Of a stretch of 36,150 bases of DNA, positions 9,290 to 36,150 are shown one piece after another (position 1 is the first letter of the stretch; the number at the start of each line of letters is the position of its first letter). The notes below the pieces were generated by a model. It saw nothing but the letters and a program-made list of their open reading frames with translations. It was not told the DNA's origin and ran no database searches. The stretch comes from Bacillota bacterium (GTDB lineage: Bacteria > Bacillota > Sulfobacillia > Sulfobacillales > Sulfobacillaceae). A program made the translations under genes and the position numbers. The stretch is from NCBI GenBank assembly GCA_023475835.1, contig JAMCVM010000111.1, forward strand, positions 1-36,150, written 5' to 3'.

Positions 9290-9970
9290 ATTACTACTTA
9301 ATATGCGATGGTCCGCGTGATGCGCTTTTGCTCCCGCCGCATAGATCGCCCCCCATCACTCAACCGTACCCCATGTGGATCCATGCACCGTTTTCTGCTT
9401 GAACGACTCGACGACTTCCAAAAAAGCGTATTGTGGATGACCATGGCCGTTTTCGTTCAAATTCACCCCCACCACCACCGGATCTTGGTCGGTCCCGCAC
9501 CCGCGTTTGCCCGGTCGATCCTTGGACTACGCCCAGGATTATGACTCGCGCCCCCAAAACAGGTATCGTCAAGTTCCACCAACCTGGCTAACGGATACTG
9601 GGCATTGCGGTCGGTCATGGCCCACTGGATTTATGATGTATTAATCAGGCGGCATCGTATTGCCACCCGAGTGCCCGGCTGAGTGCTAAGGCCGATTTGC
9701 CCTCGGTATCCACGGAAATGAGGAAAATCGCTAAGATCCATATCGGAAACAGCAATTTTGTTCGATGGAAAATCTTTCTGGCCGTGATCGAATCTTGATG
9801 TCGGTACGCACTACACGCATAGAAGGCATGGATGCGACCGGATCGACGCACGGTCCAGCACTGGGTCCCATAGCCCGTCGAAGACACAAAACCCTTCGGC
9901 CACCGCTACCGAAACAGATAGTCCTGGCAATCTTCCTCGGTCCCAAAGTGGTCTTGCCACGGGATTAACC
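9290..9970 (-). pseudogene. Decayed IS1595-type transposase
   Basis: Pieces of one transposase can be read in order on the minus strand, but in different frames. The N-terminal segment reads HFGTEEDCQDYLFR then RWPKGFV. Next comes a zinc-ribbon/helix region (ITARKIFHRTKLLFPIWILA, then GKSALALSRALGWQYDAA). Then AMTDRNAQYPLARLVELDD with the first catalytic Asp in ELDDTCFGGA, and after a shift KRGCGTDQDPVVVGVNLNE. This is the domain order of IS1595-family DDE transposases. There are several stops and at least two frameshifts, and the C-terminal third is missing after about 9300. The zinc-ribbon cysteines are mostly lost. I could not identify terminal inverted repeats. The locus is a dead relic. 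Confidence 0.72.
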
Positions 9971-10286
9971 TCGCCGTATTCCCCGTCCCTAGACACCCAA
10001 ATTCCGCCCGATTTTACCATCTGTTCGTCCGCTTCGGACCACATCCCTGACTGCATCGGGCATGTATGTCTGGCGTTGACTCATATTCGGGTGCGGGAAG
10101 CGAAAGGCTTCGCCATGGCCTTCGGTGGAGAACATGACGCTTTTTAGTCCGCTGATGCTTGTTTCGCCGGGAATTGATCCTAGAAATTTGGCGATGGCCT
10201 CTCTTGATCGGTATATTGGTAATCATCAACAACCTGAAATGCTGTCTCAGAGGTCGGTGAAATGGACATTGCGAGGGGATAGGACG

Positions 10287-23958: not shown

Positions 23959-23987
23959 TTTACCCCAGCGCGAGGCTAAGGTACACT
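23959..23987 (+). promoter_or_regulatory. Candidate promoter of the btuCD riboswitch transcript
   Basis: TTTACC (23959-23964) and TACACT (23982-23987) are separated by 17 bases. Transcription would start near 23994, exactly where the riboswitch P1 stem begins at 23996. The fit to sigma-A consensus is 4/6 in each box. Confidence 0.5.
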
Positions 23988-23995
23988 CAAACCAA

Positions 23996-24165
23996 CCGAA
24001 CCCGATTGGTGTATAACAGGGAATCCGGTGAAAATCCGGAGCGGCACCCGCCACTGTAACCGAGGAGTCGACCAGGCCACGAGTCAACTCGGAAGGCCTG
24101 GTCTCAGGCGTCTTTAGACGAGACGATGATTCGGCAGTCAGGAGACCTACCAAGAGGAGATTCGG
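23996..24165 (+). promoter_or_regulatory. Cobalamin (adenosylcobalamin) riboswitch
   Basis: Conserved elements appear in order: GGGAATCCGGTGAAAATCCG (24020 onward), GCGGCACCCGCCACTG (24041 onward), and the B12 box CAGTCAGGAGACCTACC at 24135-24151. The closing P1 stem can be drawn: CCGAA (23996-24000) with TTCGG (24161-24165), and TTGGT (24006-24010) with ACCAA (24149-24153). It precedes btuC, so cobalamin binding should reduce expression of the B12 transporter genes. Confidence 0.95.
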
Positions 24166-34116: not shown

Positions 34117-35115
34117 ATGGAGAATAGGATGCAGATGCAGCGTATAGGCTTAATTGTCAATCCGATGGCAGGAAGAGATATTCGGCGCTTAGTCGCCAGA
34201 GCTTCGTTAACTTCGTCGACCGATAAGCTGCAAGCAGCGCGGCGGGTTGTCGCTGGGGCAGCCCAAGCCGGCAAGGTGGAGGTGGTCCTCAACGACGATT
34301 GGGAGGGCATGGGACGGGCGCTTCAGGCGGAATATCCCGACGTTATCCGGTTGTTGGCCCCCGACCAGTCCCATCCGACGAGTGTTTCGGGTCGAACTCA
34401 AGTGTGGACGCAAGCGCTGGAAGCTGACGGCGTTTCGGTGATAATGGTTATCGGCGGAGACGGGACTCAACGCAACGCCACCGAAGCCATGCCCGAGATC
34501 CCCCTGTTGGCCCTCGCCGGAGGCACCAACAACGTGGCTTGTTGGCTAGGTGACGAAACCGTGGCCGGATACGCCGCGGCCATGTGGGCGCTAGAGAAAC
34601 CGGCGCTGGAGGACACTGGGACCCAGGTGAAGGTGATTCATGTGCAAACGGAACGCGAAGCGCAAACGTTAGCATTGATTGATGTGGCATTTGTTCGGCA
34701 GCGATACACCGGTGCGCTGGCAGTGTGGAGCGCGTCCGATGTCTCGCAACTTCTGCTGGCGGTCGCGGATCCCGCTCGCCCTGGCTTATCGAATGTCGGG
34801 GGGATGTTGACCCGCCTGACTCCAGAAGAGGACCAGGGCTTGGAGGTGGGGTTGACGCCTTCGGGCGCGTCGGGTCGGTCGGTGCCTGCGGTGTTGGCGC
34901 CAGGACTGATGGCCGTGTTTTCCGTGCAATACGTGGAAAGGATTGCCCTCGGCAAGAGCATTTTCTGGAAAGCCGAAGAGGGGGGGAGCTTGGCTCTGGA
35001 TGGCGAACGCACGGTGGTGATGGCTCCCGGGGAAACTGTGTCGCTGACGATTCGACGCGATGGGCCTTGGTTTTTGCATCCCGGACGCATCCTGGAAAAG
35101 GTCGCTGGTCACTAA
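34117..35115 (+). CDS. ATP-NAD kinase / AcoX-like protein
   Basis: A 332-residue protein of the NAD-kinase/diacylglycerol-kinase-type fold. The N-terminus reads IGLIVNPMAGRDIRRLVA and the nucleotide motif is VIGGDGTQRNATEA, followed by LLALAGGTNNVACWLG. These match COG3199 (AcoX-like, predicted inorganic polyphosphate/ATP-NAD kinases). The C-terminal half is beta-rich. It lies eight bases after the permease stop, so it is probably the third gene of that operon; the link between an exporter and this enzyme is unclear. Start ATG 34117 is used; ATG 34129 is an alternative with a similar purine-rich region upstream. Confidence 0.85.
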   Translation: MENRMQMQRIGLIVNPMAGRDIRRLVARASLTSSTDKLQAARRVVAGAAQAGKVEVVLNDDWEGMGRALQAEYPDVIRLLAPDQSHPTSVSGRTQVWTQALEADGVSVIMVIGGDGTQRNATEAMPEIPLLALAGGTNNVACWLGDETVAGYAAAMWALEKPALEDTGTQVKVIHVQTEREAQTLALIDVAFVRQRYTGALAVWSASDVSQLLLAVADPARPGLSNVGGMLTRLTPEEDQGLEVGLTPSGASGRSVPAVLAPGLMAVFSVQYVERIALGKSIFWKAEEGGSLALDGERTVVMAPGETVSLTIRRDGPWFLHPGRILEKVAGH

Positions 35116-35333
35116 TTGAGAAATTCTGAGAGGCCCATCTAGTGCAGCTCTGACTGCAGGGGACCGAAATCAACAAAGTCGGGGGGTTAGGATGTCCGAA
35201 TGGTGTCGGTCCACGGCGATCTAGCACGATAGGCGGGCGCGTCCAGGGGCCGTTAGGCGGTTGGCCGCTCCGAGTTGCGAACGACCCCCCCGCGGTCAAA
35301 GATGCAGAAGATTGCGGCACGCATATAACCTTT

Positions 35334-35487
35334 CATACATCCTAAGATGAGTCAGGTGGCAGGGCCGGATCCCAACTCTGTGAGGAAAATACCCCTTTGT
35401 TTCTCCACGTGAAGTAGAAACTCTGGGATCATTTTAGGCCATCGCCTCCACTTGGAGAATGGAACCTGACTCATCTTAAGATGCATG
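35334..35487. mobile_element. MITE-like element with terminal inverted repeats and 8-bp duplication
   Basis: The left end (CATCCTAAGATGAGTCAGGT at 35338-35357, extending to 35334) and the right end (ACCTGACTCATCTTAAGATG at 35464-35483, extending to 35487) are inverted repeats of about 24 bp with two mismatches. TAACCTTT occurs as a direct repeat immediately outside both ends (35326-35333 and 35488-35495), the size of a target-site duplication. Inside, GATCCCA (35368-35374) and TGGGATC (35424-35430) form a second inverted pair. The element is too short to code for a protein. The family of its parent transposon was not identified. Confidence 0.72.
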
Positions 35488-36150
35488 TAACCTTTACCTT
35501 CTTGCGGTATTCGGTGAATTGGTCACGCTGTAGTCTGTTAACGTCGGAGTGTGGGTGGCAACGCTTGGGGCGTGTACGCCTCGGTTCCTTTCATAACAGC
35601 CTGTCTTGTCAAGAGCGGCTAAAGCCATTGGGGGGACGATGGGCTCTTGGCAGTGCCTCTTGACGGCCGACAGGGCTCGATTGACACTTCCCTCCCTGAA
35701 GGGAGAGGATTCTTGCGAGGAACCCACTCAGGGGATCTTTACTGCAAAGGGTGAGCCAAACACGCCCTATCCGGTCGCCTATGGCCTTCGGGTACTTGGG
35801 AAAAGCGTTCACCGAATCCTGTTAACGTCTGGGCTTGACGACGCGATCCAGTTTACGCCTCCCCCGATGGGGAAAGCCTACCACCAAACGTATCCAATTT
35901 TCCAAGGGAGAACCGCTGTGTAAGATAGCACGAATGCCGGAAGGTGGTTCGTTGGGGACAAAAACTTTCGCTTAATGGCGAACGGCTGATATCCCCAGGC
36001 TTAGCCTGATATTCCCGCGCTGAAAGGTAGGGGTAAATAACTGCTAAAACAAATCACATGATATCTACGTACATCGCATCATAAGGTGTATAATATGGGT
36101 ATGCTAGTTGCGTGGCGGGGATGTTCCCCGCCGGAGCAAGCCAGCTACCG
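35488..36150. other. Non-coding end of window with hairpins
   Basis: No frame has a start, ribosome-binding site and recognisable domain. A short hairpin CTCCC-TGAA-GGGAG (35692-35705) followed by GGATTCTTGCG resembles the right end of IS200/IS605-type elements, but this is only a visual resemblance. Near the edge, TATAAT at 36089-36094 is followed by GGCGGGGA-TGT-TCCCCGCC (36114-36132), a strong hairpin. A gene or element may start beyond the window. Confidence 0.35.
36114..36132. repeat. Strong 8-bp GC-rich hairpin
   Basis: GGCGGGGA and TCCCCGCC are perfect inverted repeats around a TGT loop, 20 bases after a TATAAT-like box. Function unknown; it could belong to a leader RNA or the end of a mobile element that continues beyond the window. 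Confidence 0.5.

Follow-up and report, generated by a model that had tools for sequence, protein, structure and literature searches.

A 154-bp miniature inverted-repeat element and its candidate IS1595-family partners in a Sulfobacillaceae-type bacterium

The window, i.e., the whole stretch of DNA analysed in this study (36,150 nucleotides), belongs to a 3.8-Mb genome in 246 contigs, which is designated as G000. A Cobalamin riboswitch is found at 23980–24151 (75.9 bits), and an NAD-kinase/DAGK-like gene occupies 34117–35115. The element studied here starts 218 bp past the stop codon of this gene. It is 154 bp long (35334–35487, plus strand) and is directly abutted on both sides by the target-site duplication TAACCTTT, whose identical left and right copies lie at 35326–35333 and 35488–35495 (no strand assigned), so that the element and both duplications span 35326–35495. 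The 24-bp terminal inverted repeats (TIRs) at 35334–35357 (plus strand) and 35464–35487 (minus strand) are paired at 22 of 24 positions, leaving two mismatches, and the same pair is 89% complementary when read in a 27-nt frame. The termini are CATACATCCTAAGATGAGTCAGGT at one end and CATGCATCTTAAGATGAGTCAGGT, on the opposite strand, at the other. An inner inverted pair, GGATCCCA...TGGGATC, is also present. A transposase gene would not fit into the element, and the sole listed ORF of at least 60 aa that touches it (35481–35663) overlaps with its last 7 bases. This anatomy confirms a preliminary description of the window, which claimed a 154-bp element resembling a miniature inverted-repeat transposable element (MITE), with TIRs of about 24 bp and an 8-bp duplication.

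The whole window was examined by a joint scan, which accepted any 8-bp direct repeat whose copies, 60–2500 bp apart, directly enclosed 24-bp inverted repeats with no more than 8 mismatches. The element site, with 2 mismatches, was the single match. When 40 shuffles of two-base blocks were scanned under the same rule, one match was obtained in total. A chance inverted repeat flanked by a chance direct repeat can therefore arise, as it did once in the 40 shuffles, but this explanation is refuted by the dispersed copies and the empty site described below, and we regard its probability as negligible.

Other copies, for which the preliminary description had proposed a search, were found at eight further loci in G000 and in the same-genus genome G001. 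In G000 there are ten matching places at nine loci, the window included: those in the window, C162, C65, C158, C95 (two partial copies), C204, and C200 match at 92–99%, and those in C148 and C195 match at 79–80%. G001 possesses three copies or part-copies: one in C103, truncated where the contig ends, one in C363, and a split one in C149. Matches to this first family occur in 7 of the 61 genomes searched, including G000, and those beyond G000 and G001 are end matches of 24–48 bp. An exact-pattern scan of viral contigs for the element gave no matches. A second family, 152 bp in length, has ends closely similar to those of the first, whereas its inner sequence is largely different. Its members are found in C117, C59, C127, and C170 of G000, along with C141 (partial) and C194, and ten matches are present in G001. 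Among the 34 genomes of the bacterial family, second-family matches were detected in seven (G000, G001, G008, G026, G027, G033, and, weakly, G030). The C95 locus of G000 (L033, 923–1288) holds a 366-bp composite of two partial copies that share one orientation, with other sequence and 10 consecutive Ns between them. One perfect duplication, TTATTTAA, is common to both partial copies, and the composite may have arisen through a nested event or be an artefact of the assembly.

A homologous locus without the element is present in G001:C186. The flanks of the element, joined with one TAACCTTT, align with this locus at 1142 of 1235 columns, the junction is gap-free, and the empty site carries a single target copy, TGACCTTT. 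This locus, which is the kind of element-free allele that the preliminary description had proposed to compare, shows that the element was inserted in the lineage of G000 or, with lower likelihood, that it was precisely lost in G001. Two more target sites have unoccupied relatives in G001, which need not be orthologous. The relative of the C158 site, in G001:C69, carries a single exact TTGCAAAA and is identical at 123 of 151 columns, in a match that extends 17 bp past the junction. The C148 site, whose flank is repeated sequence, is unoccupied at two places in G001:C20 (118/154 and 117/155 columns). These two copies of the C148-surrounding repeat are located at approximately 350–420 and 1640–1720 of L161 (G001:C20), about 1.3 kb apart. 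Because copies are present at eight other loci and the unoccupied locus of G001 carries the target once, the element is a real insertion.

The flanks of the related elements were compared for duplications. Among 13 elements in G000, a count that includes the 366-bp C95 composite and leaves out C194 (7/8) and C141 (partial), the duplication is perfect in 7, matches at 7/8 bases in 3, and matches at no more than 4/8 in the other 3. Across all loci examined, 33 short elements were counted without any being dropped, among them L093 and L154, whose ends are poor, and the inner one of the C95 copies; the C95 composite itself is beyond the length range of this count. Matching flank bases reach 8/8 in 12 of these elements and 7/8 in 7, and 14 have 6/8 or fewer. 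Of the mismatched left–right pairings of short elements that served as the control (n = 1056), 0.09% reach 8/8 and 0.47% reach 7/8, together about 0.6%. The target of the 23 insertions with 7–8/8 (19 short and 4 IS-length) is A+T-rich and roughly palindromic, with a CATT-N4-AATG-like consensus derived from counts over both strands with no background control.

The inner inverted pair had led to the suggestion that the whole element may fold as RNA. The pair is indeed present and the predicted fold is strong on both strands (z −5.2 on the plus strand and −8.0 on the minus strand), which, together with the position of the element downstream of the NAD-kinase/DAGK-like gene, would be in keeping with a structured regulatory RNA or terminator retained for that gene. 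However, changes on both sides that keep the pair were observed for just 1 of the 45 predicted pairs in a set of 11 sequences, compiled without G001:C149, which is split, and without the outer C95 piece, and the homologous locus of G001 has no element. Likewise, no Rfam match was obtained at the element at the gathering threshold, and a consensus scan of 35000–35700 found no promoter or terminator, i.e., no sigma-70-like or terminator-like site, within the element. Inverted-repeat elements tend to fold well. By visual inspection of the alignment, C148, C195, and G001:C363 no longer have the inner pair, and one of the 45 pairs covaries; the fold is therefore mainly a consequence of the inverted repeats. 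A conserved structured RNA was thus rejected on the grounds of almost no covariation and no Rfam match, and the regulatory RNA or terminator reading is very unlikely.

A DDE element with matching ends, the third item that the preliminary description had proposed to look for, is present in the same genome. This insertion sequence (IS) of 1213 bp (G000:C222:1588–2800) has two ends that match the first 23 bases of the left TIR at 22/23 and 20/23 positions. It contains an ORF of 337 aa with zinc-ribbon and DDE domains, which matches PF12762 (4.8e-18), PF12760 (2.8e-11), and NF033547, the IS1595 family transposase (4.6e-43). The listed start codon of the ORF is inside the terminal repeat, so that translation may actually begin at a more internal position. 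The resemblance of the C222 IS to the element is confined to the terminal 23 bp, and its flanks show no duplication (5/8). A relative that is 83% identical over residues 1–108 begins in C183; its matched frame contains one TAG, and the contig end truncates it. A further IS1595-type protein, intact at 307 aa, is encoded in C104; the 5′ end there is similar, and no 3′ end was found before the contig end. Transposase relatives at E ≤1e-20 occur in 22 of the 61 genomes. A broken IS1595-type transposase fragment is also found within the window (9627–9998, minus strand), sharing 52% identity with the C222 protein across residues 24–147.

Ten IS-length elements with such ends were found in the bacterial family. 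Perfect 8-bp duplications flank four of them, all outside G000 (L055 and L117 in G001, L127 in G031, and L129 in G020), compared with none of 90 mismatched pairings; L127, like L064, L067, and L154, has one end with 7/24 mismatches. The remaining six, the C222 IS included, match at 3 to 5 of the 8 flank bases. Ends starting with CAT and 8-bp duplications are not unique to IS1595, and the ISPepr1 group of IS4 has CAT ends. The element could accordingly be a MITE mobilised by another DDE family that makes 8-bp duplications, such as that group, with the similarity to IS1595 ends due to convergence. Against this, several elements carrying IS1595 transposase genes have closely similar 24-bp ends, and perfect 8-bp duplications flank 4 of the 10 IS-length elements; we give mobilisation by another family very little credence. 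Judging from the shared ends, an IS1595-family IS is the likely driver of the element, which bears out the earlier assignment to a DDE family making 8-bp duplications and specifies that family. In another arrangement, at L103 752–3924 (G006:C153), IS1595-type ends separated by 3173 bp and flanked by a perfect 8-bp duplication (TATCCAAA) enclose an inner 1199-bp IS-like unit; this is a possible composite element.

Some IS1595-family ISs resemble the element beyond the repeats. The left part of the element (35334–35377, plus strand) is similar to the 3′ ends of L101 (79.5% over 44 columns), L116 (78.6% over 42 columns), and L103 and L106 (84.6% over 39 columns each), and is also matched by an apparent 5′ end, L028 (79% over 43 columns). 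The right part (35429–35487, minus strand) is similar to the 5′ ends of L102 (80.3% over 61 columns), L127 (70% over 60 columns), and L130 (67% over 58 columns), and several other IS 5′ ends match it in the terminal repeat only. The G001 IS with the well-matching 3′ end (L101) has a 5′ end that matches in the terminal repeat only. Both a matching 5′ end (L102) and a matching 3′ end (L116) are present in G019:C63, approximately 6 kb apart, and the way in which the transposase fragments are ordered leads us to take them as one split element. A single IS matching both sides of the element beyond the repeats was not found in G000, and the IS-end comparison yielded no source for the middle of the element (about 50 bp). 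The resemblance of the two sides to IS 3′ and 5′ ends fits an internal deletion, although it does not prove one; the 5′ ends that match in the terminal repeat only, the L028 match to the left part, and the sourceless middle speak against it. The element would probably have arisen in this way from an IS1595 relative, retaining roughly 40 and 60 bp of its 3′ and 5′ ends, respectively.

The element is short and has no transposase gene, its TIRs are accompanied by a duplication, its copies are dispersed, and there is evidence of its insertion, all of which characterize a MITE. On account of this repeat-bounded anatomy, the near-identical dispersed copies, the 8-bp duplications, the unoccupied locus in a same-genus genome, and the ISs with similar ends in the same genome, we consider it highly probable that the element is a MITE moved in trans by an IS1595-family transposase. 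The transposase would bind the 24-bp ends and join the element into an A+T-rich, roughly palindromic, CATT-N4-AATG-like site through cuts staggered by 8 bp, and repair of the resulting gaps would generate the 8-bp duplication. We think that the element has no function for its host, and to our knowledge none is known. Retention of the promoter-side end of the parent IS might make the element family a spreading regulatory cassette that brings transcription signals to new sites. We consider this improbable; the consensus scan revealed no sigma-70-like site within the element, and promoters of other types lie beyond such a scan.

The closest known counterpart is a MITE of the archaeon Haloquadratum walsbyi linked to ISHwa6, a member of the IS1595 family, for which Table 4 of PMC3852290 lists a length of 165 bp, 7 copies, a 25-bp inverted repeat, and an 8-bp direct repeat. 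According to that paper, such MITEs have mainly terminal repeats in common with their ISs. By description rather than by sequence, the ISHwa6-linked MITE and the 154-bp element have nearly the same design and are both linked to IS1595, although the host of the latter is bacterial. Because an IS1595-linked MITE with an 8-bp duplication had thus been published, the term "undescribed" used in the preliminary description could hold for the sequence family at most, and not for the kind of element. The C222 partner protein has the zinc-ribbon and DDE domains of IS1595-family ISs, which are usually flanked by 8-bp duplications according to PMC8101967; the 154-bp element, in contrast, has no transposase gene. 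Eukaryotic Merlin elements are described in the same source as having a related transposase domain and 8- or 9-bp duplications; they have terminal GG, whereas the ends of the 154-bp element begin with CAT. Although the element is of an ordinary kind and leaves the understanding of how such elements work unchanged, the known MITEs are extended by two families, of 154 and 152 bp, whose ends closely resemble each other and for which there are candidate autonomous IS1595 partners, and empty sites show that the element inserts. The two families would be of use in repeat annotation and in following transposition in Sulfobacillaceae-type bacteria of the group to which the window belongs.

Two other dispersed repeats were observed in the window downstream of the element. 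The first, at 35680–36000, is up to about 320 bp long and has 36 matches in G000 at E ≤1e-5, itself included, as well as matches in other genera of the bacterial family. The second, at 36029–36150, has 28 matches in G000, also including itself, several of which are near contig starts, and the contig of the window ends inside this repeat.
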